64,000 nucleotides of DNA from Jannaschia sp. CCS1 (GTDB lineage Bacteria > Pseudomonadota > Alphaproteobacteria > Rhodobacterales > Rhodobacteraceae), in contig NC_007802.1 of NCBI RefSeq assembly GCF_000013565.1, positions 2,604,001 through 2,668,000 of the forward strand, written 5' to 3'. Below, piece by piece: positions 12,300 through 25,567 of this stretch. The notes beneath the pieces were generated by a model that saw nothing but the letters and a program-made list of their open reading frames with translations, was not told where the DNA came from and searched no databases. How positions within the stretch are numbered: position 1 is the stretch's first letter; every line of letters starts with the position of its first letter. The position numbers and the translations under genes were made by a program.

Positions 12300-13133
12300 A
12301 TGACGGCTCGCTATTTCGCCCCCAAGGGGGGCCATCCGCCTCAAGAGCAACTTCTGACTGACCGCGCCGTTTTTACCGAGGCTTACGCGGTCATCCCCCG
12401 GGGCACGATGCAGGACATCGTCACCAGCGCTTTGCCGTTTTGGGACCACACCCGCCTGTGGGTCTTGTCGCGCCCGCTCAGCGGATTTGCCGAGACATTT
12501 TCGCAATACATTATGGAGGTGTCGCCCGGCGGCGGTTCGGACCGGCCCGAGACGGACCCGAATGCCGAAAGCGTCTTGTTCGTGGTCGACGGGACGTGCG
12601 GCATCACCATCGCAGGGGCCGCCCATACCCTGCGGCCCGGTAGTTACGTCTACCTCCCGCCCGCCACCAACTGGACCTTGCACAACAAAACAGACGCGGC
12701 GGTGCGGTTTCACTGGATCCGCAAGTCCTATGAGGCGGTGGACGGCCTGCCCCTACCCGACCCCCTTGTCACCCACGAGGATAATGTGACCGCCAACGTC
12801 ATGCCGGACACGGATGGCAAATGGGCGACAACACGATTTGTGGAATCCGCCGATATGCGCCACGACATGCATGTCAACATCGTCACCTTCCAGCCCGGCG
12901 CCGTGATCCCCTTCGCTGAAACCCATGTGATGGAGCACGGATTATATGTGCTTGAGGGCAAGGCGGTTTATCGCCTGAATCAAGATTGGGTGGAGGTGGA
13001 AGCCGGGGACTACATGTGGCTGCGCGCGTTTTGCCCGCAGGCTTGCTATGCAGGTGGGCCCGGTCCGTTTCGGTATTTGTTGTATAAGGATGTAAACCGG
13101 CACATGACGCTGCGTGGCGGGAGGGCCATCTAG
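12300..13133 (+). CDS. allE: (S)-ureidoglycine aminohydrolase, bicupin
   Basis: The 277-residue protein has two cupin domains in tandem (about 50-135 and 185-270) and aligns by eye along its length with E. coli AllE. Shared features include ETHVMEHGLYVLEGKAVY (E. coli ETHVQEHGAYIL), GDYMW, and the C-terminal YKDVNRxM-like ending. It deaminates ureidoglycine to ureidoglycolate, the step between allantoate and the AllA reaction. The ATG at 12300 is preceded by AAGGA at 12288-12292. It is transcribed toward bhcABCD but separated from it by 257 AT-rich bases with their own palindromes. An allantoate-cleaving enzyme is not present in this window. Confidence 0.88.
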   Translation: MTARYFAPKGGHPPQEQLLTDRAVFTEAYAVIPRGTMQDIVTSALPFWDHTRLWVLSRPLSGFAETFSQYIMEVSPGGGSDRPETDPNAESVLFVVDGTCGITIAGAAHTLRPGSYVYLPPATNWTLHNKTDAAVRFHWIRKSYEAVDGLPLPDPLVTHEDNVTANVMPDTDGKWATTRFVESADMRHDMHVNIVTFQPGAVIPFAETHVMEHGLYVLEGKAVYRLNQDWVEVEAGDYMWLRAFCPQACYAGGPGPFRYLLYKDVNRHMTLRGGRAI

Positions 13134-13217
13134 ACACGGCGACCTCACTGGCCGCCCGGTGCCAATTTGACGGCGACGGACGTGCATTGATTTCGTCTCT
13201 GACGTAGAATCAACACC

Positions 13218-13289
13218 GTATCTCGACATCTCTTTCAGATGAAATGAAATAGAATTTCATCATATGAAAAATATAAATACCTGAGATAC
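13218..13289. promoter_or_regulatory. Probable bhc operon promoter/operator with nested inverted repeats
   Basis: This AT-rich stretch contrasts with the GC-rich surroundings. At 13244-13260, ATGAAATAGAATTTCAT is a perfect 7-3-7 palindrome close to the IclR-family operator style (TGGAAATnATTTCCA). It is flanked by GTATCTC at 13218-13224 and its complement GAGATAC at 13283-13289. The known regulator of the beta-hydroxyaspartate cycle, BhcR, is an IclR protein, but no gene for it is visible here. Confidence 0.55.
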
Positions 13290-13390
13290 ATGACTTTTTG
13301 ATACCGATGCGTATGACGGGTCCCCTATATGCAAAAATAGGCACCCGCCGTCACCTCCGATATGTTGCCCGAAATCGAGAGGAGACGACG

Positions 13391-14581
13391 ATGAGCTTTC
13401 AGAACCCGGTCTTTATTCCCGGCCCTACGAATATGCCCGAGAGGATTCGCACGGCTTGTGATATGCCCACGATTGATCACCGCTCTCCAACCTTTGGACG
13501 CATTCTGCATCCCTGTCTTGAGAACGTGCGCAAGATCCTGAAATCAGACAACGCCCACATCTTCATCTTCCCCTCCACCGGCACTGGCGGTTGGGAAACG
13601 GCGCTGACCAACACGCTGTCACCCGGCGACAAGGTTCTGGCAGCACGCAATGGCATGTTCAGCCATCGCTGGATCGATATGTGCCAACGCCACCAACTGG
13701 ATGTGGACATTGTCGAGACGCCCTGGGGTGCGGGCCTGCCCGCCGAGCGTTACGCGGAAATTCTCGCAGCGGATACGGCCCACGAGATCAAGGTCGTGCT
13801 GGCGACGCATAATGAGACGGCCACGGGCGTCAAATCCGACATCGCTGCCGTCCGCCGCGCGCTGGACGACGCGGGCCACCCCGCCCTGCTGTTCGTGGAT
13901 GGGGTCAGCTCTATCGCATCCATGGACTTTCGCTTTGACGAATGGGGCGTGGACATCGCCGTGACCGGATCGCAAAAGGGGTTCATGCTGCCAGCCGGTC
14001 TGGCGATTGTCGGCTTCTCCGACAAGGCGAAGGCCGCAAGCGAAACCGCGACACTCCCGCGCACCTTCTTCGATATCAAGGACATGGCGGGTGGCTATGC
14101 CGCCAACGCCTTCCCCTACACGCCGCCCGTGGGTTTGATGCGGGGATTGAAACTGGCCACGGATCTCCTGCTAGAGGAAGGGTTGGAGAACGTCTTTGCC
14201 CGGCATCACCGCATTGCTGAAGGCGTTCGCCGCGCCGTGGATGCCTGGGGACTGGAGCTGTGCGCGCAGAGCGCCGATGTGCAGTCTGACACCGTCAGCG
14301 CGATCAAAACGCCCGAGGGATTCGACGCCACCGATATCGTGACCCGCGCGGCAGAGACCTATGGCGTCGCGTTCGGTGTCGGTCTGGGCGAGGTTGCAGG
14401 CAAGGTCTTTCGCATCGGCCATCTGGGCAGCCTCACGGACGTCATGGCGCTGTCAGGCCTCGCCACCGCCGAGATGTGCATGGTGGATCTGGGTCTCGAC
14501 ATCAAACTGGGCTCTGGCGTGGCGGCGGCACAGGAATACTATCGCACAAACCCTGCACAATCGGCACTGCCGGTGGATTGA
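13391..14581 (+). CDS. bhcA: L-aspartate:glyoxylate aminotransferase of the beta-hydroxyaspartate cycle
   Basis: The 396-residue protein is a class V (fold type I) PLP aminotransferase. The PLP lysine is expected at K196 in TGSQKGFMLPAG; the N terminus has FIPGPTNMPERI. Similar proteins are often labelled serine-glyoxylate or alanine-glyoxylate aminotransferase, but the gene order here with a threonine-dehydratase-like, a D-threonine-aldolase-like and an ornithine-cyclodeaminase-like gene is that of bhcABCD described in Paracoccus denitrificans. There BhcA makes glycine from glyoxylate, with aspartate as amino donor. A GAGAGGAGA ribosome site precedes the ATG. It leads a four-gene operon behind an AT-rich promoter region. 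Confidence 0.92.
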   Translation: MSFQNPVFIPGPTNMPERIRTACDMPTIDHRSPTFGRILHPCLENVRKILKSDNAHIFIFPSTGTGGWETALTNTLSPGDKVLAARNGMFSHRWIDMCQRHQLDVDIVETPWGAGLPAERYAEILAADTAHEIKVVLATHNETATGVKSDIAAVRRALDDAGHPALLFVDGVSSIASMDFRFDEWGVDIAVTGSQKGFMLPAGLAIVGFSDKAKAASETATLPRTFFDIKDMAGGYAANAFPYTPPVGLMRGLKLATDLLLEEGLENVFARHHRIAEGVRRAVDAWGLELCAQSADVQSDTVSAIKTPEGFDATDIVTRAAETYGVAFGVGLGEVAGKVFRIGHLGSLTDVMALSGLATAEMCMVDLGLDIKLGSGVAAAQEYYRTNPAQSALPVD

Positions 14582-14595
14582 AGAGAGGTGTGACC

Positions 14596-15558
14596 ATGAA
14601 AGATACCCTAGATCTTCCAACCTACGACGACATGCTCGCCGCGCATGAGCGGATCAAGCCGCATATCAACCGCACGCCGGTGCGCACCTCTGCCTACCTC
14701 AATGAACTGACGGGCGCGGAGTTGTTCTTCAAATGCGAGAACTTCCAGGAGCCGGGCGCCTTCAAAGTGCGTGGCGCGGCCAATGCCGTTTTCGGGTTAA
14801 GCGATGCGCAGGCCGAAAAGGGCGTCGCGACACATTCGTCGGGCAACCACGCGTCCTGCCTCTCCTATGCGGCGATGCGCCGGGGCATTCCGTGCAACGT
14901 TGTGATGCCGCGTACCGCGCCGCAGGCCAAGAAAGATACCGTGAAGCGCTATGGCGGGGTGATCACGGAGTGCGACCCGTCCACCACCTCGCGCGAAGAG
15001 ACGTTCGCCAAGGTGCAAGCCGCAACAGGCGGCGACTTCGTCCACCCCTATAACGACCCGCGCGTGATCGCGGGCCAAGGCACCTGCTCCAAGGAATTCA
15101 TGGAGCAAGTGGACGGGCTCGACATGATGGTTGCCCCCATCGGCGGCGGCGGCATGATCTCTGGCACCTGCCTGACCCTTTCAACCCTGGCGCCAGAGGT
15201 GCAGATCATCGCGGCAGAGCCGGAACAGGCCGATGACGCTTACCGCAGCTTCAAAGCGGGCTATATTATTGCCGATGATGCGCCCAAAACCATCGCCGAC
15301 GGCCTGCTGGTGCCCCTGAAAGAACGGACCTGGCACTTCGTCAGCAACCATGTGACCGATATCCTCACCGCATCGGAAGAGGAAATCATCGACGCGATGA
15401 AGATCACCTGGAAGCATCTGCGCATCGTAATGGAGGCCAGCTGCGCCGTGCCGCTCGCCACCATTCTGAAGAACAAGGATCGCTTCGCGGGCAAACGCGT
15501 GGGCGTGATCATTACGGGCGGCAATGTCGATCTCGACAAGCTGCCTTGGACCCAATGA
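14596..15558 (+). CDS. bhcB: Erythro-beta-hydroxyaspartate dehydratase
   Basis: This 320-residue protein is a fold type II PLP enzyme of the threonine dehydratase/serine racemase family. The PLP lysine is predicted at K57 (GAFKVRGA), with the glycine-rich phosphate loop GGGGMISG and the SSGNHA motif. In the beta-hydroxyaspartate cycle it removes water from erythro-beta-hydroxyaspartate to give iminosuccinate. The length fits the single-domain form without an ACT regulatory domain, which argues against biosynthetic threonine deaminase. The ATG at 14596 has AGAGAGG at 14583-14588. It lies 14 bases after bhcA and 25 before bhcC. Confidence 0.92.
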   Translation: MKDTLDLPTYDDMLAAHERIKPHINRTPVRTSAYLNELTGAELFFKCENFQEPGAFKVRGAANAVFGLSDAQAEKGVATHSSGNHASCLSYAAMRRGIPCNVVMPRTAPQAKKDTVKRYGGVITECDPSTTSREETFAKVQAATGGDFVHPYNDPRVIAGQGTCSKEFMEQVDGLDMMVAPIGGGGMISGTCLTLSTLAPEVQIIAAEPEQADDAYRSFKAGYIIADDAPKTIADGLLVPLKERTWHFVSNHVTDILTASEEEIIDAMKITWKHLRIVMEASCAVPLATILKNKDRFAGKRVGVIITGGNVDLDKLPWTQ

Positions 15559-15583
15559 ACGACACTTTGAAGGGAGTTCAGAG

Positions 15584-16747
15584 ATGAACAAGCAAGTGAA
15601 TTTCGATGAGCTGGAAGTTGGTTATGACGTCCCCGCGCTGCCCGGCATGGATGAGGCTGATATCCAGACTCCCTGCCTGGTGCTGGATCTGGACGCGCTG
15701 GAGCGGAACATCAAGAAGATGGGTGATTACGCACGCGAACACGGGATGCGCCACAGGGTTCACGGCAAGATGCACAAGTCCGTTGATGTGGCCAAGTTGC
15801 AGGAAGAGCTTGGCGGGGCCTGCGGTGTGTGCTGCCAAAAGGTGTCCGAGGCCGAGGTCTTCGCGCGTGGCGGGATCAAGGATGTCATGGTCTCCAACCA
15901 GGTGACGGACCCGCAGAAGATCGACCGCTTGGCGCGCATGCCGAAGTTTGGCGCACGTGTGCTGTGTTGTGTGGACGATCCGGCCAACGTGGCGGATCTG
16001 TCGGCGGCAGCCGTCAAGCACGGCACCCAGATCGAGGCGCTGGTGGAGATCGATTGCGGCGCGGGCCGCTGCGGCGTGACCACGACGCAGGAGGTCGTGA
16101 ACATCGCGAAGATGATCGACGCCGCCGAGGGCCTGAAGTTTGCGGGCATCCAGGCCTACCAAGGCGCGATGCAGCACCTCGACAGCTATGACGAACGCGC
16201 GAGCAAGACCCAGGTCGCCATCGACATGGTCGAGGACGCGATTGCAGGCCTGAAGGCCAATGGGTTGGAATGTGATATCGTCGGTGGCGGCGGCACGGGC
16301 AGCTACTACTTTGAAAGCAATTCGGGCGCGTTCAATGAGCTTCAGTGCGGGTCCTATGCGTTCATGGACGCGGATTATGGCCGTATCCTCGACAAGGACG
16401 GCAAGCGCATCGACGACGGCGAATGGGAGAATGCGCTATTCATCCTGACATCCGTGATGAGCCATGCGAAGGCCGACAAAGCCATCGTAGACGCAGGCCT
16501 GAAAGCACAATCCGTCGACTCTGGGCTGCCAACGATCTATGGACGCGATGACGTGGAATACGTCAAATGCTCCGATGAGCATGGCGTGGTGATGGATCCG
16601 GACGGTGTGCTGAATGTGAACGACAAGCTGCGCCTGGTGCCCGGCCATTGTGATCCCACCTGCAACGTCCACGATTGGTATGTCGGCGTGCGCGGCGGCA
16701 AGGTCGAGACGCTGTGGCCCGTGTCGGCGCGTGGCAAGGCGTATTGA
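15584..16747 (+). CDS. bhcC: Beta-hydroxyaspartate aldolase
   Basis: The 387-residue protein belongs to the D-threonine aldolase/alanine-racemase-fold family. HGKMHKS near residues 60-66 corresponds to the PLP site (predicted K62), and GHCDPTCNVHDWYVG near the C terminus supplies the metal-binding His/Cys pair of this family. BhcC condenses glycine with glyoxylate to make (2R,3S)-beta-hydroxyaspartate, the carbon-carbon bond-forming step of the cycle. AAGGGAG lies 7 bases upstream of the ATG. The order after bhcAB and before bhcD identifies it better than the generic aldolase family does. Confidence 0.92.
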   Translation: MNKQVNFDELEVGYDVPALPGMDEADIQTPCLVLDLDALERNIKKMGDYAREHGMRHRVHGKMHKSVDVAKLQEELGGACGVCCQKVSEAEVFARGGIKDVMVSNQVTDPQKIDRLARMPKFGARVLCCVDDPANVADLSAAAVKHGTQIEALVEIDCGAGRCGVTTTQEVVNIAKMIDAAEGLKFAGIQAYQGAMQHLDSYDERASKTQVAIDMVEDAIAGLKANGLECDIVGGGGTGSYYFESNSGAFNELQCGSYAFMDADYGRILDKDGKRIDDGEWENALFILTSVMSHAKADKAIVDAGLKAQSVDSGLPTIYGRDDVEYVKCSDEHGVVMDPDGVLNVNDKLRLVPGHCDPTCNVHDWYVGVRGGKVETLWPVSARGKAY

Positions 16748-16774
16748 GGGCGTTTCGCCTGACGGCGACCCACC

Positions 16775-16850
16775 GGGGGACTGGTCCCCCGGACCCCCTA
16801 GAGGTGTAAAGCCAAGATGAAGGAGCCGCGTTGGAAGGCGCGGCTCTTCT
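16775..16850 (+). terminator. Tandem hairpins between bhcC and bhcD
   Basis: Two stems lie in this gap: GGGGGA/TCCCCC at 16775-16790, then GAGCCGCG/CGCGGCTC at 16823-16846 followed by TTCT. The short T-run suggests partial termination or mRNA processing, so bhcD may be expressed at a different level from bhcABC. Confidence 0.55.
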
Positions 16851-16871
16851 ACAATCAAACGGAGTGAACCC

Positions 16872-17837
16872 ATGTATATCGTGCCCGAGCGCGCAATTGC
16901 GGACCTGATGACGCGGGAGGCCGCGTTCGATGCGGTTGAAAAGGTATTTGCCGCCATGGCCGCAGGCGACGCCTATAACTTTCCCGTCGTGCGCGAGGCC
17001 ATCGGCCACGAAGACGCGCTTTACGGCTTCAAGGGCGGGTTCGATCAGGCTGGTCTGACGCTGGGGCTAAAGGCGGGGGGCTACTGGCCCAACAACCTTG
17101 AGAAGCGTGACTTGATCAACCACCAGTCGACGGTGTTTCTGTTTGACCCCGATACCGGCAAAGCCAAAGCCATGGTTGGCGGCAACCTGTTGACCGCCCT
17201 GCGCACGGCGGCGGCGTCCAGCGTCTCTATCAAGCACCTGGCGCGCGACGACGCGAAAGTTATCGGCATGATTGGCGCGGGCCACCAAGCCACGTTCCAG
17301 TTGCGCGCGGCACTGGAGCAGCGGACCTTCGAAAAGGTCATTGGCTGGAACTACCACCCCGATATGCTGCCCAACATCGAGAAGGTCGCGACTGAGGCGG
17401 GCGTGCCGTTTGAGGCGGTCGACCTGCCGGGCATGGCTGAGGCGGATGTGATCATCTCCATCACGTCGGCCTTCGCGCCTTCGCTGATGGCGGACCATGT
17501 CGCGCCGGGCACACACATCGCCTGCATGGGCACCGACACCAAGGGCAAGCAGGAGGTCGAGGCCGCGCTTCTGGCGCGCGCGACGGTGTTCACCGATGAG
17601 GTGGCGCAGTCCGTCTCCATCGGCGAAGCGCAGCATGCCGTCGCCGATGGCTTGATCGCGGAGGGCGACGTCCATCAACTCGGCGCAGTGATCAATGGCA
17701 CCCATGCGGGCCGCGCCTCCGCCGACGAGATCACGCTGTTTGACGGGACGGGCGTTGGCTTGCAGGACCTGGCCGTTGCGGCATCAGTCGTCGATCTGGC
17801 GATTAAAAAAGGCGTGGCGATTGAGGTCGACTTCTAG
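16872..17837 (+). CDS. bhcD: Iminosuccinate reductase
   Basis: The 321-residue protein is of the ornithine cyclodeaminase/mu-crystallin family, with a Rossmann segment around VIGMIGAGHQATFQLRA and a later HIACMGTDTKGKQE motif. In the beta-hydroxyaspartate cycle BhcD reduces iminosuccinate to L-aspartate, which regenerates the amino donor used by BhcA. The generic name ornithine cyclodeaminase would be misleading here. It is the last gene of the bhc operon, separated from bhcC by two hairpins, and ends against a strong terminator shared with the convergent permease gene. Confidence 0.92.
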   Translation: MYIVPERAIADLMTREAAFDAVEKVFAAMAAGDAYNFPVVREAIGHEDALYGFKGGFDQAGLTLGLKAGGYWPNNLEKRDLINHQSTVFLFDPDTGKAKAMVGGNLLTALRTAAASSVSIKHLARDDAKVIGMIGAGHQATFQLRAALEQRTFEKVIGWNYHPDMLPNIEKVATEAGVPFEAVDLPGMAEADVIISITSAFAPSLMADHVAPGTHIACMGTDTKGKQEVEAALLARATVFTDEVAQSVSIGEAQHAVADGLIAEGDVHQLGAVINGTHAGRASADEITLFDGTGVGLQDLAVAASVVDLAIKKGVAIEVDF

Positions 17838-17858
17838 AGCGCGACAACAGAATACAAG

Positions 17859-17895
17859 AAGGGGCGTGGGGCCAAACAGCGCCACGCCCCTTTTT
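17859..17895. terminator. Bidirectional rho-independent terminator between bhcD and the permease
   Basis: AAGGGGCGTGG at 17859-17869 pairs with CCACGCCCCTT at 17882-17892 and is followed by a T-run on the plus strand. On the minus strand the stem is followed by TTCTT. It can therefore stop both convergent operons. Confidence 0.85.
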
Positions 17896-17912
17896 CATGT
17901 CTTCAGAACGGC

Positions 17913-19349
17913 CTAGCTGTCTGATCCCGGAAGGCTGCCGGACCCGTGGCCCGCCATGCCGCCCGAGACTTCCTCGGTGGCCTCACCGGACAATTCCTCC
18001 GGCAGGATCAGGTTCAGCACAATCGCGATGAAGGCGGCGGGCAACAGACCCGAAACCATCAGCACACGCCCCCAATCGGGCAGGTATTGCACGGCCCCCG
18101 GCTCCAGCTGCAGGCCAAGACCTATCGACAAAGCGACCGCGAAGATCACCATATTGCGCCGGTTCCAGTTCACGTCTGACAGCATGGAAATACCGGCGGC
18201 CACGACCATGCCGAACATGACGATGACGCCGCCGCCCAGAACCTCGATCGGGATGGTGCGGATCAAACCACCCACCTTGGGCACGAGGCCGCAGATGATC
18301 AGGAAGATCGCACCGCAGGTTACAACGTGGCGGCTCATCACGCCGGTCATCGCAATCAGACCAACATTCTGAGAGAAGCTCGTGTTCGGGAAGCCACCAA
18401 AGAGGCCCGCAAACGCCGTACCGACACCATCGGCGAAGGTCGCGCCCTGGATCTCTTCATCCGTTGCTTCACGACCGGCGCCGCCCTTGGTGATGCCCGA
18501 CACGTCGCCCACCGTTTCAACGGCAGAGACGAAAGACATCAGGCAGAAACCGAGGATGGCCGCGACGGAGAATTCAAACCCATAGGCAAACGGGCGCGGC
18601 AGCGCGAAGACGGCGGCGCGATCCCAGGATGTGGCGATGGCCTCAAAGCTGAGCATATCGGTGAAAAACAGGCAGTAGGCGTAACCCACGGCCAAACCGA
18701 TCAGAACCGCCGAGATCGACAGCATACCGCGGGCAAAGAACTTCAGGCCCAGGGTCACAGCGATCACGATGCACGCCACGATCCAGTTGCCGAGCGAGCC
18801 ATATTCCGGCGTACCGATGGCAGGCACCCCACCTGCGGCGTACTGGATGCCCACGCGCACCAGCGCCAGACCGATCATCGTCACGACAAGGCCGGTGACC
18901 AGCGGCGGCAGCGCGAACCGTATCTTGCCAATGAACAGACCGAGGAAGCCGTGGAACAGGCCCCCGATGATGACACCGGTGAAGAGCGCGGCCAATGCGT
19001 CCACACCCTGCCCCGCCACCAGCGGGATCATGATCGGCAGGAAGGCAAATGACGTGCCCTGTACGATGGGCAATTTCGCCCCAATTGGACCGATGGAGAT
19101 CGTTTGCAGCAGGGTCGCCACGCCCGCAAACAGCATCGACATCTGGATCAGGTACAGAAGTTCGGGGAAGTCGGGGCTGTTGGACCCAAAGCCGAAGCCC
19201 GCTGCGCCCGCCACGATAATTGCAGGCGTCACGTTGGACACGAACATCGCCAGAACGTGCTGAATGCCGAGCGGCACCGCTTTGTAGAGCGGTGGTGTGA
19301 AATTTGGATCGCGGAGCTGCTCCGGCGTTCCGAGTGAATGATCGGCCAT
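17913..19349 (-). CDS. NCS2-family nucleobase permease (urate/xanthine type)
   Basis: This 478-residue membrane protein belongs to the uracil-xanthine permease (NCS2) family, with about 12 to 14 hydrophobic segments. Family features include an N-terminal GIQHVLAMFVSNVTPAIIV and the middle segment GFPNTSFSQNVGLIAMTGV, which matches the family's substrate-site helix. The start ATG at 19349 follows GGGAGGG; longer frames reach 19496 but overlap allA. It is 22 bases downstream of allA, at the end of the puuE-uraD/allA operon. Urate, xanthine or allantoin are therefore the likely substrates, urate being my first guess. Confidence 0.88.
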   Translation of the reverse strand: MADHSLGTPEQLRDPNFTPPLYKAVPLGIQHVLAMFVSNVTPAIIVAGAAGFGFGSNSPDFPELLYLIQMSMLFAGVATLLQTISIGPIGAKLPIVQGTSFAFLPIMIPLVAGQGVDALAALFTGVIIGGLFHGFLGLFIGKIRFALPPLVTGLVVTMIGLALVRVGIQYAAGGVPAIGTPEYGSLGNWIVACIVIAVTLGLKFFARGMLSISAVLIGLAVGYAYCLFFTDMLSFEAIATSWDRAAVFALPRPFAYGFEFSVAAILGFCLMSFVSAVETVGDVSGITKGGAGREATDEEIQGATFADGVGTAFAGLFGGFPNTSFSQNVGLIAMTGVMSRHVVTCGAIFLIICGLVPKVGGLIRTIPIEVLGGGVIVMFGMVVAAGISMLSDVNWNRRNMVIFAVALSIGLGLQLEPGAVQYLPDWGRVLMVSGLLPAAFIAIVLNLILPEELSGEATEEVSGGMAGHGSGSLPGSDS

Positions 19350-19371
19350 TTGTGTCCCTCCCAAGATAGCC

Positions 19372-19887
19372 CTAAACCAGCCCCGCGCTGATGCAGTGTA
19401 GTCCCGGCTCGACCGAATACGGGGTGTCGAGCCGGTGTTCTTCCAGGTTCGGCGTCGTGCCGATCCTGTCGACAACCGCAAAAAGGCCTGGCGCATGCAG
19501 AGGCGTCAGAACCCCGTGCCAGGTGTTGCGGTGAAAGTTGATGCCTTGCCCGGGCGCCGCCACGAAGGCCTGCGCAGGACCGGGTGCGCCGCCAGCGTCT
19601 TGGGCCACGACAACCAAAAACGGATGCCCGGTCATGCAAATGAAGGTCTGAGAGCCCTCGGGATGACGTTCCAGCAGCGCAATTTCTACCGGCCATCGCC
19701 GCGCCTCGGCTTTGAAAATGCTGATGCCCGCACGGCCACCCGGTCCGAAGTCAAGCGTTGCGCGGTCATGGAAACGGCCACAGCGCCCCTCGTTAATGAT
19801 CTTGTCAGGCGAACCCTCGGCCTCCAGCACGTCGCCGAAGGGGGCGAAGGCCGTGGATGTCAGGGGCTGTGCGGTCAGCGGGATCAT
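19372..19887 (-). CDS. allA: Ureidoglycolate lyase
   Basis: The 171-residue protein matches the AllA cupin family, with LTSTAFAPFGDVLEA at the N terminus and GQGINFHRNTWHGVLTPL in the cupin core, where the His residues probably bind metal. It splits ureidoglycolate into urea and glyoxylate, which is the point where purine degradation meets the bhc operon encoded next to it. The ATG overlaps the stop of the puuE-uraD gene (ATGA at 19884-19887), so the two are coupled. Confidence 0.93.
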   Translation of the reverse strand: MIPLTAQPLTSTAFAPFGDVLEAEGSPDKIINEGRCGRFHDRATLDFGPGGRAGISIFKAEARRWPVEIALLERHPEGSQTFICMTGHPFLVVVAQDAGGAPGPAQAFVAAPGQGINFHRNTWHGVLTPLHAPGLFAVVDRIGTTPNLEEHRLDTPYSVEPGLHCISAGLV

Positions 19888-21296
19888 TGGCCCAGTTTCT
19901 CCAACAGCCGCAACTCGGCAATCCGTTCGACCTGTTTGCAGGCCTCGGTGAATTCGATGTCGCGTGGGTTGGCGATGCGGGTGTGGAATGCCTCAAGAAT
20001 AGACGCTTTGGTGTTGTCTTTGACGGCGATGATGAAAGGAAAGCCGTGGCGATCCACGTATTGCGCGTTGAGGGTTTGGAAGGTTGCGCGCTCCTCATCG
20101 GTCAGCAGATCCAGCCCCGCGCCCGCTTGCTCGGCGGTCGATTCTGCTGTCAGTTTGCCCGCAGCCGCCAGCTTGCCCGCCAGATCGGGATGCGCCTTCA
20201 GGACATCCAAACGTTGCCCCTCGGACGCCGAGCGGAACACCCGTGCAAGGGCCGAGTGGACGCCAACCGCACTGTCATGCATGGGTCCAAGTTCCAGCGC
20301 GTGGGCCCCCTCCGCGATCCATGGGGAATGCTCGAAGATGCCGCCAAATGCCTCCACGAAGGCGTCCCGGTCCATCTGCGAAGGGCGCGCGCGGTGGCGA
20401 GGGGGATGCTCTGCCGCCCAATGGTCCGCAATGTCCTCGCGGGTCGCGAACCAGACATCATCGTGACCTTGCATATACTCCAGCACACGTTTCAACGCGG
20501 CCGCCCGACTTGGGCGCCCGATGATGCGACAATGCAGCCCGATGGTCATCATCTTGGGCGCACCTGCCTGACCTTCTGCATAAAGCGTGTCGAACGCATC
20601 GCGCAGCATCGCCTCAAAATCAGCACCTGTGGTGAAGCCCGCCTGGATCGCAAAGCGCATGTCGTTGCAATCCATCGTGTAGGGCAAGATCAGCTGATCC
20701 TGGCCGCCCGCCGTCACCCAATAGGGGAGATCATCGGCGTAATCGTCTGAGATATAGGCCAGATCGCCCTCTTCCGCGGCCAGATCAACGGTGTTCATCG
20801 AGCAGCGCCCCGTGTACCAACCGCGCGGCGGCTGGCCCGTCACTTCGGTGTGCAGGCGGATCGCTTCAACGATCTGGGCGCGTTCCTCCTCCGCGGGCAT
20901 GTCCTTATGCTCCACCCACTTGAGGCCGTGGCTGGCAATTTCCCAACCCGCAGCCGTCATTGCGGCCACCTGTTCCGGCGCGCGGGCCAGCGCTGTCGCC
21001 ACACCGTAGACCGTCACAGGCACGTCGTTCAGGATGCGATGGACGCGCCAGAACCCGGCGCGCGCGCCATATTCGTATAGCGATTCCATGTTCCAATGGC
21101 GCTGCCCCGTCCAGGGGGCGGCCCCGGTGATCTCCGACAAAAACGCCTCGGACGCCCCATCGCCGTGGAGGATGTTGTTCTCGCCACCCTCCTCATAATT
21201 AAGCACAAAGTTGACAGCGATCTTTGCCCCTCCCGGCCAATTGGCGGCGGGTGGGTTGGCCCCGTATCCGGACATATCGCGTGGGTAGCGGTTCAC
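19884..21296 (-). CDS. puuE: PuuE-type allantoinase fused to OHCU decarboxylase
   Basis: The 470-residue protein has two parts. Residues 1 to about 300 form a metal-independent, polysaccharide-deacetylase-like allantoinase (YPRDMSGYG, VNFVLNYEEGGENN, IGLHCRIIGRPSRA). The last 160 residues are an OHCU decarboxylase (UraD) with HSPWIAE, LKAHPDLAGKLA, and GFPFIIAVKDNTK. One polypeptide therefore covers OHCU to (S)-allantoin and allantoin to allantoate. The start is a GTG at 21296 with AAAGGA upstream; it keeps the conserved YPRD segment, which the internal ATG at 21275 would lose. It is the first gene of the minus-strand operon and diverges from uraH. Confidence 0.9.
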   Translation of the reverse strand: MNRYPRDMSGYGANPPAANWPGGAKIAVNFVLNYEEGGENNILHGDGASEAFLSEITGAAPWTGQRHWNMESLYEYGARAGFWRVHRILNDVPVTVYGVATALARAPEQVAAMTAAGWEIASHGLKWVEHKDMPAEEERAQIVEAIRLHTEVTGQPPRGWYTGRCSMNTVDLAAEEGDLAYISDDYADDLPYWVTAGGQDQLILPYTMDCNDMRFAIQAGFTTGADFEAMLRDAFDTLYAEGQAGAPKMMTIGLHCRIIGRPSRAAALKRVLEYMQGHDDVWFATREDIADHWAAEHPPRHRARPSQMDRDAFVEAFGGIFEHSPWIAEGAHALELGPMHDSAVGVHSALARVFRSASEGQRLDVLKAHPDLAGKLAAAGKLTAESTAEQAGAGLDLLTDEERATFQTLNAQYVDRHGFPFIIAVKDNTKASILEAFHTRIANPRDIEFTEACKQVERIAELRLLEKLGQ

Positions 21297-21339
21297 GAGC
21301 GAGATCCTTTCGATGTTAACGACTTCTATTCCAAGAAAA

Positions 21340-21354
21340 TGGAAACATTTTTCA
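21340..21354. promoter_or_regulatory. IclR-like palindrome in the puuE/uraH divergent promoter
   Basis: TGGAAACATTTTTCA fits TGRAA-N5-TTTCA, the same half-site pattern as the palindrome upstream of bhcA at 13245-13259. The surrounding 150 bases are AT-rich and also contain TTCAA-N7-TTGAA at 21351-21367. A shared regulator for purine degradation and the bhc operon is inferred from this similarity. Confidence 0.45.
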
Positions 21355-21446
21355 AATTATTCTTGAAGGAGCCTTCGGTCCACCTTGCTTTGCACCGCCC
21401 CCTCTGGCCTCTCTATAAGGGCATAGATCAATGGAAAGGACACGCG

Positions 21447-21803
21447 ATGGCGGGCTATTTGACTACCCACGTTCTCGACACGGCCAAGGGCTGCCCGGCC
21501 AGTGGCATCCAGATTGCGCTGTACCGGGTGTCCGGGAACTCGCACCGTATAATCGCGGAGGCTGTGACGAATGCGGATGGGCGCACCGATGCGCCAATCC
21601 TGCCATCGGACAAGTTCGAACCCGGATCGTATGAGCTGATCTTCTTTGCGGGTGACTACCTGCGCCAGCCCGGCCAACCGGACGACACGATCCTGTTCCT
21701 GGACCAAATCCCGATCCGCTTCGGCATGTCCGACGCAGACGCCCATTACCATGTGCCGCTTCTGCTTTCGCCCTTCGGATATTCCACCTATCGCGGCAGC
21801 TGA
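21447..21803 (+). CDS. uraH: 5-hydroxyisourate hydrolase
   Basis: The 118-residue protein is a transthyretin-related HIU hydrolase. It starts with the conserved LTTHVLDTAKGCPA segment and ends with the diagnostic C-terminal tetrapeptide YRGS; HYHVPLLLSPFGYSTY is also typical. It hydrolyses 5-hydroxyisourate, the PuuD product, to OHCU, the substrate of the UraD domain encoded across the divergent promoter. AAAGGA lies at 21434-21439 before the ATG. The last 16 bases overlap the 3' end of the convergent LysR gene. Confidence 0.95.
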   Translation: MAGYLTTHVLDTAKGCPASGIQIALYRVSGNSHRIIAEAVTNADGRTDAPILPSDKFEPGSYELIFFAGDYLRQPGQPDDTILFLDQIPIRFGMSDADAHYHVPLLLSPFGYSTYRGS

Positions 21804-22720
21804 CCCAGCTTTTCGGCCTGCCGCACCAGATCGCCAATGCGGTTGATCACGAATTCCATGAAGAGCCGCGTCTTCGGATCCTGCATCCGGCGATGGGTGA
21901 ACAGGCACGCCATCTGGATCGGCATCGGCGGCGTTTCCTGCGCCACCGCCACCAACCGGCCCGCCTTCAGATGCTCGGCCACCTCAAAAATCGGTTTCAT
22001 CACAATGCCTTGACCCGCCAACGCCCAGTCATTCAGCACATCACCATCATCGGATTCGTAGCGCCCCTGGATGCGGAAGCGCTTGGGTCCGTCCGGTGTC
22101 TTCAGGTGCCACTGGAATTCCGTCGCGCCGGGAAATCGCAGGTTGAGGCATTCATGCGCCCCAGACGTCAGCTCCGCACCGCCCGCAGGCATACCGCGGG
22201 CCGCAACGTAGTCTGGCGCGGCGCACAGAACCCGTTCCACGTCCGCGATCTTGCGGATACGAAGCGTGCTGTCCTCAGGCTCCCCCAGAAAAAACGCGAG
22301 GTCGAGGCCTTCGGTCGTCAGATCCACTTTCCGGTCGGTCAGACGCAGGCGCACGCGAACCTCCGGATAAAGGTCAAGGAACCCCGGCACCTCCGGGGCA
22401 ATCAGGCGACGTCCCACACCCAAAGGGGCAGCCACATAGAGTGACCCCTTTGGGTTCTCCGTGATATCAATGACTTGCGCTTCGGCATTCTCAACCGATT
22501 CAAGGATTTCCTTCGCGCCGGAATAGAAGGCCTTGCCATGTTCCGTCGGCGTCAGACTGCGCGTGGTGCGCTGGAACAGCCGCACGCTCAGATGCTCCTC
22601 CAGCTGCGAAATCCGAGACGACGTGACAGCTGGCGAAATACGCAAATCGCGCCCCGCCGCAGACATGGAGCCCAATTCATAGACACGCACGAAGGTTCGG
22701 ATGTTATCGAGATAGGACAT
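21788..22720 (-). CDS. LysR-family regulator in the purine cluster
   Basis: The 310-residue protein has an N-terminal LysR winged helix (MSAAGRDLRISPAVTSSRIS, about 18-40) and a substrate-binding effector domain. I start it at the ATG at 22720; the frame is open to 22903 but that would run into puuD. It is divergent from puuD across 112 bases and overlaps the end of uraH, so it probably controls urate oxidation and perhaps the wider cluster. Effector unknown; urate or a later intermediate would be logical. Confidence 0.88.
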   Translation of the reverse strand: MSYLDNIRTFVRVYELGSMSAAGRDLRISPAVTSSRISQLEEHLSVRLFQRTTRSLTPTEHGKAFYSGAKEILESVENAEAQVIDITENPKGSLYVAAPLGVGRRLIAPEVPGFLDLYPEVRVRLRLTDRKVDLTTEGLDLAFFLGEPEDSTLRIRKIADVERVLCAAPDYVAARGMPAGGAELTSGAHECLNLRFPGATEFQWHLKTPDGPKRFRIQGRYESDDGDVLNDWALAGQGIVMKPIFEVAEHLKAGRLVAVAQETPPMPIQMACLFTHRRMQDPKTRLFMEFVINRIGDLVRQAEKLGQLPR

Positions 22721-22832
22721 TGTTCCGGCTTTTTTGATACAGCTTGGCTTTTGCCTGCAATAGCAGAAGAGTGGGTGATACCCTAGGCTGAACCCGACAC
22801 GCAGGGCTGAGGCCGGGCAATGGAGATTGGAC

Positions 22833-24074
22833 ATGTATGATTGGCTGGTGCTTTGGGACTGGATCGCGTTTGCCGTCCGCTGGCTGCACGTCATCACCGC
22901 CATGGCCTGGATCGGGGCATCGTTTTACTTCATCGCGCTCGATCTGATGCTGAAAGCCTCCCCGGATCTGCCCGAAGGCGCGTCTGGCGAGGAGTGGGAG
23001 GTGCATGGCGGCGGCTTTTACCGAACGGTGAAATACAACGTCGCGCCCTCCGTGATGCCCGAGCATCTGACCTGGCACAAATGGCAAAGCTACTGGACCT
23101 GGCTCTCGGGCGCGGCTTTGTTGATGATCGTCTACTGGGTGGGGGGAGAGCTGTATCTGCTGGACCCCAACAAGGCCGAAATCAGCCTATTTCAGGGTAT
23201 CTTGATCTCTGCCGCGTCGCTGACCGTGGGCTGGATCCTCTATGATCTGATGTGCAAATCGAAGCTGGCCGAGACGCCGACCGTCCTGATGCTATTGCTG
23301 TTCGTGATCCTTGTGATCATGTCCTGGGGCTATAACCAGGTCTTCACCGGCCGCGCGGCGCTGCTGCATCTGGGCGCGTTCACGGCCACGATCATGACGG
23401 CCAACGTCTTCTTCCAGATCATGCCGAACCAGCGCATCGTGGTGGCCGATCTCAAGGCCGGGCGCACGCCGGATGCGAAATACGGCAAGATTGCCAAGGT
23501 TCGCTCCACCCACAACAATTACCTGACGCTGCCGGTCATTTTCCTGATGCTGTCCAATCACTACCCGCTGGCCTTTGCGACGGAGTATTCGTGGATCATC
23601 GCATCCCTGATCTTTCTGACCGGCGTCACGATCCGGCATTTCTTCAATACGATGCACAAGACGGGCAAGGGCCCGCACTGGACCTGGGGTGTTACGATCA
23701 TGTTGATGATCCTGATCGCCTGGCTCAGCACCGCGTCGATGCATGACACCTATGAGGAGGCCGAAGCCCGCGCGTTCACCCCCTATGAGGCGCAATTCGC
23801 CAGCGCCGCTAATTTTCAGGAGGCGGTTGGCATCGTGCGCGGCAATTGCTCCATGTGCCATGCGCGCGAACCGGTCTGGCCCGGCATGGCCTGGGCCCCG
23901 CGCGGCGTGCTGCTGGAGACGGAAACGGACGTCGCCCGGCACGCGCAGCAGATCTTCCTGCAGTCCGGCGTTAGTCACGCGATGCCGCCACCCAACGCGA
24001 TCTCTACCATGACGCCCGAGCGTCGGGCCTTGATCGTGGCCTGGTATCGGGAGGCGACGCGCGCGCCCGAGTAA
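22833..24074 (+). CDS. puuD: Membrane-bound urate hydroxylase with cytochrome c domain
   Basis: The 413-residue protein has about eight hydrophobic segments in its first 300 residues (WDWIAFAVRWLHVITAMAW at the N terminus) and a C-terminal cytochrome c domain with one haem motif CSMCH at residues 339-343. This is the PuuD architecture, which oxidises urate to 5-hydroxyisourate and passes electrons to the respiratory chain rather than making peroxide. The ATG at 22833 follows GGAG. The haem-c attachment would use the Ccm system encoded at 57960-60795. Divergent from the LysR gene. Confidence 0.93.
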   Translation: MYDWLVLWDWIAFAVRWLHVITAMAWIGASFYFIALDLMLKASPDLPEGASGEEWEVHGGGFYRTVKYNVAPSVMPEHLTWHKWQSYWTWLSGAALLMIVYWVGGELYLLDPNKAEISLFQGILISAASLTVGWILYDLMCKSKLAETPTVLMLLLFVILVIMSWGYNQVFTGRAALLHLGAFTATIMTANVFFQIMPNQRIVVADLKAGRTPDAKYGKIAKVRSTHNNYLTLPVIFLMLSNHYPLAFATEYSWIIASLIFLTGVTIRHFFNTMHKTGKGPHWTWGVTIMLMILIAWLSTASMHDTYEEAEARAFTPYEAQFASAANFQEAVGIVRGNCSMCHAREPVWPGMAWAPRGVLLETETDVARHAQQIFLQSGVSHAMPPPNAISTMTPERRALIVAWYREATRAPE

Positions 24075-24097
24075 CGGACACGCGCGGCCAGACCACC

Positions 24098-25300
24098 CTA
24101 GCCCACCACGTTGAACTCCGGCCCATAGGGATAGCCGGTGATGTTCTCGTTCCCATCCTCGGTGATGATCAGGATGTCATGTTCGCGGTAGCCACCTGCC
24201 CCGGGCTGGCCTTCGGGGATCGTCAGCATCGGCTCCATGGAGATGACCATGCCCGGCTCCAGAACCGTGTCGACGTCTTCGCGCAGCTCAAGGCCGGCCT
24301 CCCGGCCATAATAATGCGACAGCACCCCGAAGGAGTGGCCGTAGCCAAAGGTGCGGTATTGCAGCAGGTCACGTTCAGCAAAGACTTCGTTGATTTTATG
24401 GGTGACGTCCGCACAGGACATACCGGGCTTGAGCAGGCTCATCCCATATTCATGGGCGGCGATATTGGCTTCCCAGATCTTCAAACTGTCCGCATCACAC
24501 TCCTCCACGAACATCGTCCGCTCCAGCGCCGTGTAGTAGCCCGAGATCATCGGAAAGGTGTTGAGCGACAGGATATCGCCGCGCTCACAGGCCCGCGCCG
24601 TGACCGGGTTATGGGCACCGTCGGTGTTGATGCCCGACTGGAACCAGACCCAGGTGTCGCGGTATTCGGCATCGGGGAAGCGGCGGGCAATCTCCAACTC
24701 CATCGCGTCGCGCCCGGCCATGGCCACGTCGATTTCCCGCGCGCCGATCTTCACGGCCTCCCTGATGGCATAGCCGCCCACATCAGCGACATTGGCTCCA
24801 TGACGGATCAGCGCAAGTTCGGCAGGCGATTTGTGCATCCGTTGCTGCATGGTGGCCGGGGCGATGTCGATACTGCGGGAGGGGGACAAAAACTCCTCCA
24901 GCAACATCTTTTGCACGACCGAGATGTGGTCGCCCTCAAACCCAACGGCACGGCCCGCACCCGTCACCGACAAGATCGCGCGCCAGTAGTTGTTTCGCTG
25001 CCAATCGGTGTAGGTGATCGCGTCGCCGTGGCTGCGCCGCCAGGGTTGCGCCGCATCGATACCGGCGCTGATCGTTACGCTGTCGGTGGGCGTCACGACA
25101 AGCGCATAAGGCCGTCCAAACGCACAACAGAGAAAACCCGAATAGTAGGCGATGTTGTGCATCGACGTGAAAACGCAAGCCTCCACGCCTGCGTCAGACA
25201 TCCGGGCGCGCAGGCCCTTCAGGCGCGCATCATATTCCGCGCCTTCAAAGGGCAACATCCGGTCACCTTGGTGAAAACGGTAAAAATCGGGACGGGTCAT
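24098..25300 (-). CDS. Creatinase (creatine amidinohydrolase), M24 family
   Basis: The 400-residue protein has the creatinase/aminopeptidase P fold. It resembles Pseudomonas creatinase over long stretches: CAFGRPYALVVT, GIDAAQPWRR, TWVWFQSGINTDGAHNPVT, GYYTALERTMF, and YRTFGYGHSFGVLSHYYG. These motifs and the length distinguish it from Xaa-Pro dipeptidases, which share the fold. It would split creatine into sarcosine and urea. I choose the ATG at 25300, with AAGG nine bases upstream; another ATG lies at 25306. It is convergent with puuD, 23 bases apart. Sarcosine gives glycine, which also enters the bhc cycle. Confidence 0.87.
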   Translation of the reverse strand: MTRPDFYRFHQGDRMLPFEGAEYDARLKGLRARMSDAGVEACVFTSMHNIAYYSGFLCCAFGRPYALVVTPTDSVTISAGIDAAQPWRRSHGDAITYTDWQRNNYWRAILSVTGAGRAVGFEGDHISVVQKMLLEEFLSPSRSIDIAPATMQQRMHKSPAELALIRHGANVADVGGYAIREAVKIGAREIDVAMAGRDAMELEIARRFPDAEYRDTWVWFQSGINTDGAHNPVTARACERGDILSLNTFPMISGYYTALERTMFVEECDADSLKIWEANIAAHEYGMSLLKPGMSCADVTHKINEVFAERDLLQYRTFGYGHSFGVLSHYYGREAGLELREDVDTVLEPGMVISMEPMLTIPEGQPGAGGYREHDILIITEDGNENITGYPYGPEFNVVG

Positions 25301-25567
25301 CGACATGATCCTTCTCATCAGGTCGACGCAAAGCCGGGGCGCACTCTCCCTCAGCCGCGTCAACGGTCAAGCAAGATCCCGGCGTTCAGGATGGGAAACC
25401 AGAGCTCCGCTGTCGCGGTGGCGACGCCATCGCCGCTCCGTGGGTCATGGGATGCCCGAAGATCGCGATTATGGCAAGACATTCCATCGTCGAAAGGGAC
25501 TGGGTCGTGTGCGGATCAAAGCGCGCGCGGCGCCTGATGCGGGCGGGACGGCGCAAAACCCGCCCCG

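Follow-up and report, generated by a model that had tools for sequence, protein, structure and literature searches.

In Jannaschia sp. CCS1, the operon of the beta-hydroxyaspartate cycle (bhcABCD) is embedded in genes of purine degradation, and the locus is likely, judging from its gene content and context, to be a purine-carbon module in which the cycle assimilates purine-derived glyoxylate. The window, i.e., the whole stretch of 64,000 nucleotides that was analysed, covers positions 2604001-2668000 of contig C2 (NC_007802.1) in a genome of 4.40 Mb; coordinates given below without a contig or locus are window positions. Between 12300 and 24074, eleven intact genes are contiguous: allE, bhcABCD, an NCS2 permease gene, allA, a puuE-uraD fusion, uraH, a lysR gene and puuD. 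The literature presents the beta-hydroxyaspartate cycle as a route for glycolate in marine bacteria, its original description reportedly being a Nature paper of 2019. If purine-derived glyoxylate is indeed used, nucleobase turnover would be tied to CO2-free carbon assimilation.

The genes were assigned with family models, whose scores are written as bits/cut-off, with NCBIfam equivalog models for BhcA to BhcD (Table 1). All four Bhc proteins exceed these curated cut-offs, which is the gene set from which the cycle is predicted, and bhcC has one match in the whole genome. Of the oxidative urate-to-glyoxylate pathway, urate oxidase, 5-hydroxyisourate hydrolase, 2-oxo-4-hydroxy-4-carboxy-5-ureidoimidazoline (OHCU) decarboxylase, allantoinase and ureidoglycolate lyase are all encoded in the block. 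The open reading frames are unbroken in 11 of 11 genes; the permease gene is convergent with bhcD, with 75 bases between them, and allA and puuE-uraD overlap by 4 bases. Family scores and open frames together bear out the initial annotation, which had named these genes as one contiguous set. It had also placed xanthine oxidation elsewhere, and xdhA was indeed found outside the locus, at C2:893341 (574/467 bits).

From these genes, we infer a flux that would begin with urate, either taken up through the NCS2 permease or formed by the xanthine dehydrogenase encoded elsewhere. PuuD, UraH, UraD and PuuE would convert urate to allantoate; an allantoate-hydrolysing enzyme, for which AllE itself is a candidate, would act next, and AllE and AllA would then yield glyoxylate. 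BhcABCD would turn two glyoxylate into oxaloacetate with no CO2 lost.

The neighbourhood is conserved across the order. Up to 20 kb around bhcC were taken from 138 other genomes of 64 genera of the order (the best-scoring 138 of 194 over the cut-off) and scanned with the window proteins, a purine gene being counted at 42% identity or more. The six genes counted were allE, allA, puuE, uraD, uraH and puuD, within about 9.4 kb of bhcC; some stretches end at contig ends, where genes were possibly missed. At least one of the six was found in 68 of the 138 neighbourhoods, three or more in 51 and five or more in 42; by genus, 34 of 64 have at least one and 27 have three or more. The initial annotation had allowed that the adjacency might be peculiar to one strain, and these counts dispose of that concern. 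By simple arithmetic, the chance that an 8 kb block placed at random in a 4.2 Mb genome lands in such a stretch is below 1%, as against the 51 of 138 seen. Among 80 named loci (the best of 568 confirmed, partly from the same genomes as the set of 138, several of them short), 37 carry at least one purine gene and 26 three or more; the linked ones include Planktotalea, Ruegeria spongiae, Marivita, Loktanella, Roseovarius, Palleronia and Yoonia.

The arrangement itself varies. Counting the window, three or more purine genes are present in 52 loci, and these show 20 gene orders, of which the commonest (15/52) is allE> bhcR< bhcABCD> ncs2< allA< puuE-uraD< uraH> lysR< puuD>. Grouping these orders by hand gave seven layouts, the largest of which holds 35 of the 52 loci and takes in some that lack allE or puuD. 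When linkage, taken as three or more purine genes, is mapped onto a FastTree tree built from joined BhcABCD, a minimum of 22 changes is needed, and layout needs a minimum of 7; these counts do not separate gain from loss, and that for linkage is inflated by cut contigs. In the window's genus, bhc falls into two distant branches, and both include loci next to purine genes. An allE gene lies within 2.5 kb of bhcA in 37 of the 138 loci and is co-directional with it in every one.

Glycolate oxidase is nearly absent from the same neighbourhoods. With the glcD-like gene of the window genome as tblastn query, one match was found in 139 bhc neighbourhoods (22% identity, in locus L085) and none in the 80 named bhc loci. 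Within the reach of this query, the neighbours of bhc appear to be purine genes and not glycolate oxidase. Glyoxylate carboligase (Gcl), which marks the Gcl/glycerate type of allantoin cluster, was not found over the cut-off in the window genome, the best score being 349/711 bits. A functional link is supported by the context in 27 of 64 genera (three or more purine genes), by the near absence of glcD beside bhc and by the lack of a Gcl over the cut-off.

The allantoate step leaves a definite gap in the enzyme set, for which there are two candidates, AllE and a PydC-like carbamoylase. The initial annotation had assigned allantoate hydrolysis to genes elsewhere in the genome, and no clear enzyme was found there. 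Allantoicase (PF03561) is absent from the window genome; among 101 genomes of the order, three have it, and all three belong to g12, the single genus with PF03561 out of 54 sampled; in one of these (G016; C1:619147-621299) the allantoicase match lies about 340 bases from the puuD match. The equivalog AllC model scores 210/598 bits at best. A single hydantoinase/carbamoylase of the window genome exceeds the TIGR01879 cut-off, and about 300 bases separate its gene from that of a dihydropyrimidinase on the same strand. Its nearest structures are N-carbamoyl-L-amino-acid and N-carbamoyl-beta-alanine amidohydrolases (8apz, 682 bits; 8c46, 657 bits), as against 162 bits for AllC (1z2l). An AllC encoded elsewhere was tentatively rejected, as this carbamoylase, the sole one over that cut-off, looks more like the enzyme of the pyrimidine pathway. 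It does exceed the cut-off of NF006769, "allantoate amidohydrolase" (693/452 bits); that label was discounted because of the low score with the equivalog model, which is a judgement.

The case for AllE begins with NF040771 (bifunctional allantoicase/ureidoglycine aminohydrolase), whose cut-off it exceeds; two plain AllE models score higher, at 535.5 and 523.8 bits. No experiment behind the label "bifunctional" was traced, and the phrase "bifunctional allantoicase" was absent from the literature searched. Among solved structures, 1sq4 (Glyoxylate-induced Protein) is the closest to AllE (476 bits). Residues E207, H209, H213, Q247 and K263 are invariant across 51 aligned AllE sequences; after plant and E. 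coli AllE, we take these to be the probable metal and catalytic positions. AllE is a candidate allantoate-hydrolysing enzyme. A strict mutual exclusion of AllE and allantoicase was considered and dropped: the one g12 locus sampled, L097, has no allE in its stretch, but neither do L040, L041 and L044 of the window's genus, and two of the genomes of these three (G007 and G029) have no allantoicase, AllE elsewhere in them not having been searched for. A complete route from urate to oxaloacetate in one locus, as first proposed, is too strong: the allantoate step has no clear enzyme, in the locus or outside it, unless AllE provides it, and of the five carbons of urate only two reach glyoxylate. A bolder proposal is that, in much of Rhodobacterales, the cycle is a self-standing pathway for purine carbon, glycolate being its second client, and that AllE is bifunctional, taking allantoate directly to ureidoglycolate and so closing the step without a classical enzyme. 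This combination is put forward tentatively, being about half as probable as its opposite.

In Paracoccus, BhcR is an IclR-type, glyoxylate-responsive activator of bhc (PMC11323563). Of the 138 other bhcC neighbourhoods, 124 have a bhcR match. None was found in the window locus, so that the typical but non-essential divergence of bhcR from bhcA is missing; a lone BhcR gene (402/350 bits) lies about 690 kb from the block. Where allE is near bhcA (37 loci), bhcR is present in 29 and absent in 8, plus the window, and the allE-bhcA gap in loci without bhcR is 190-307 bases. In the window, allE and bhcA are co-directional with a gap of 257 bp that contains a BhcR-type operator, so a single transcript for both is not to be assumed. 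Fifteen genomes, the window's included, have no bhcR in the stretch; 11 were searched, and in 10 of them a single BhcR exceeds the cut-off, encoded on another contig or no less than 139 kb away, while none over the cut-off was found in the remaining one, G169.

Counting the window, 99 of 136 regions upstream of bhcA contain the motif GAAA-N5-TTTC. An operator model for bhcA reaches 10 bits or more in 94% of regions, the same ones from which it was built, as against 7% of block shuffles. A perfect fit, TGAAAAATCATTTCA, stands just before the lone bhcR. By analogy with Paracoccus, BhcR probably controls bhcA in trans, with glyoxylate acting through putative binding of BhcR to the operator before bhcA; with its regulator gene so far off, this genome is a ready-made case for testing regulation in trans. 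The purine genes would be under the LysR protein, which we infer to be their regulator. A TTTC-N11-GAAA dyad before puuE (21297-21446) was observed in 15 of 51 loci; it is possibly a LysR site or a promoter element.

The site of the lone bhcR suggests how this arrangement arose. There, 137 bases separate bhcR from hppD (HPPD, Pfam). In the same-genus loci L040, L041, L043 and L044, hppD is within 1 kb of bhcR, with bhcABCD on the other side; the order in L043 is FGGY kinase, hppD, bhcR, bhcABCD and, after about 2.9 kb, a family 2 glycosyltransferase gene. In the window genome, the same glycosyltransferase gene directly follows the lone bhcR, and a search for a bhcA-D remnant at this site found none (best E 0.22). 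It looks, from gene order, as though the lone bhcR marks a second bhc site that has apparently been emptied. The lone BhcR shares 84-86% identity with BhcR of these four loci, whereas the window BhcABCD branches with L042, L045 and L163, apart from theirs, which suggests that the window block either came in by acquisition or survives from an older duplication. We suppose that the other bhcABCD copy was lost and its regulator kept, and both acquisition and old duplication fit; bhcR would have been lost from between allE and bhcA and the BhcR gene retained at the second site, where bhcABCD is gone. About 7 kb from the lone bhcR, a 25-residue puuD-like match was seen (L080:17203-17274; 56%, E 0.003), possibly by chance.

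Several observations weigh against assimilation of purine carbon as the role of the locus. None of the six purine genes was found in 70 of the 138 neighbourhoods; since, moreover, among 341 genomes from the order 328 have PuuD and 195, the window's included, have BhcC (NF045642) over the cut-off, the linkage is not required. The genome has a glcD-like gene at C2:662929, about 1.95 Mb from the block (448/568 bits), so glycolate may also feed the cycle; the next frame, positioned where glcE would be, has a weak match to the glcD model. The sole strong match of the glcD query in 261 loci was its own locus, and its reach to glcD of other genera has no positive control. On the purine side, the operator model reaches 10 bits or more before puuE in 16 of 51 regions (1.2% of shuffles), at differing positions, before allE in 1 of 52 and before puuD in 1 of 45. 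A BhcR regulon over both arms was accordingly rejected: the operator at bhcA is strong, but the boxes on the purine side are weak, vary in position and are suggestive only. The initial claim that the cycle serves purine-derived glyoxylate and not only glycolate is partly supported, by the context in 27 of 64 genera, the near absence of glcD beside bhc and the lack of a Gcl over the cut-off; use of glycolate by the cycle is compatible with this near absence of glcD.

Three other explanations were weighed against purine-carbon assimilation. The purine genes may serve nitrogen supply, with the cycle mainly detoxifying by-product glyoxylate and having its carbon role in glycolate. Purines are nitrogen-rich, BhcR of P. 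denitrificans is required for growth on glycolate and glyoxylate (PMC11323563), and the glcD-like gene of the genome points the same way; yet a four-gene assimilation cycle would be a costly detoxifier, and no close glcD was found in bhc neighbourhoods, which makes this explanation unlikely, though the strongest of the three. Somewhat less probable is control of the entire locus by the LysR protein, with BhcR restricted to glycolate. The LysR gene keeps its place in the commonest layout and the dyad before puuE could be its site, but a BhcR-type operator precedes bhcA in the window and most relatives, and BhcR is retained in 10 of the 11 searched genomes without bhcR at bhcA. Neutral adjacency, in which both clusters lie in a region inherited by descent with no functional coupling, is improbable. 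It would fit the one hand-made layout group with 35 of 52 linked loci, and the distances of bhcC and purine proteins are correlated (r 0.35-0.58, 0/999 permutations), no less than those of bhcC and bhcD inside the operon (r 0.34), for which shared descent alone would suffice; against it stand the 20 gene orders, the repeated changes of linkage on the tree and the two distant bhc branches of the window's genus, both with loci beside purine genes.

The E. coli allantoin regulon comprises allA, allB, allC, allE, gcl, hyi, glxR and AllR. It resembles the present locus in combining ureide enzymes with glyoxylate disposal and an IclR-type glyoxylate sensor, AllR (PMC11323563), but it uses AllC and gcl, for which the window genome has best scores of 210/598 and 349/711 bits only. 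In Pseudomonas aeruginosa PAO1, a gcl cluster (PA1498-PA1502) likewise places a glyoxylate assimilation module near purine genes (PA1513-PA1518); it is induced by allantoin, and its mutants grow poorly on allantoin (PMC12694930). That organism uses Gcl and the glycerate route, whereas the window genome has no Gcl over the cut-off and has the CO2-conserving cycle instead. Paracoccus denitrificans shares the same four cycle enzymes, here over the equivalog cut-offs; there, bhcR is divergent beside bhcABCD, whereas here it is distant and purine genes flank the operon. The work on P. denitrificans centres on glycolate, and purines and allantoin are named as possible sources of glyoxylate (PMC11323563). 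In the portions of text available, no report of the bhc-purine association was found among the literature matches listed, and PMC11166783 mentions both the hydroxyaspartate cycle and allantoin with no link drawn in the text examined; priority for the association is not claimed.

Table 1. Features of the purine/bhc block and its immediate surroundings (window positions; scores as bits/cut-off).
Feature	Position	Strand	Score and remarks
allE, (S)-ureidoglycine aminohydrolase family bicupin	12300..13133	+	535.5/338; NF040771 504.7/350
BhcR-type operator TGAAA-N5-TTTCA	13245..13259	+	22.8 bits; before bhcA, in the gap where many relatives have bhcR
bhcA, aspartate-glyoxylate aminotransferase	13391..14581	+	NF045640 752/650
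bhcB, beta-hydroxyaspartate dehydratase	14596..15558	+	NF045641 583/550
bhcC, 3-hydroxy-D-aspartate aldolase	15584..16747	+	NF045642 752/690
bhcD, iminosuccinate reductase	16872..17837	+	NF045643 590/500
NCS2 permease, xanthine/urate-type	17913..19349	-	ncs2 superfamily 323/292; pbuX 410/414, narrowly under the xanthine-permease cut-off
allA, ureidoglycolate lyase (products glyoxylate and urea)	19372..19887	-	NF002952 303/260
puuE-uraD fusion, allantoinase and OHCU decarboxylase	19884..21296	-	PuuE TIGR03212 488/425; UraD TIGR03164 200/96
BhcR-like box	21338..21356	-	20.1 bits; before puuE; aligned site in same-genus L042 and L045 and in genus g33; suggestive only
uraH, 5-hydroxyisourate hydrolase	21447..21803	+	TIGR02962 129.5/87
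LysR-family regulator	21788..22720	-	divergent from puuD; LysR models matched, none over cut-off
puuD, membrane cytochrome c urate oxidase	22833..24074	+	PF06181 431 bits; C-terminal CSMCH motif
M24/creatinase-type peptidase	24098..25363	-	directly after puuD, outside the block; no pathway link seen

Two further observations were made. A recurrent additional partner of linked loci was sought among uncharacterised frames and rejected, the sole one in many genera being GAPDH-like (9 genera); this gene (L118:11714-12712 and relatives; 335 bits, cut-off 367) is found inside linked loci as 11 frames. The window genome also carries, at C2:4213817-4224588 (L081:18-10788), a second allA-like gene (PF04115, 64/23 bits) and a puuE-like one as a pair (PuuE 362 bits, cut-off 424.6). 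Their neighbours are an M20-like peptidase, two GFO/IDH/MocA oxidoreductases, an epimerase and two ABC-transporter permeases, and this region is perhaps a second ureide-like catabolic cluster.

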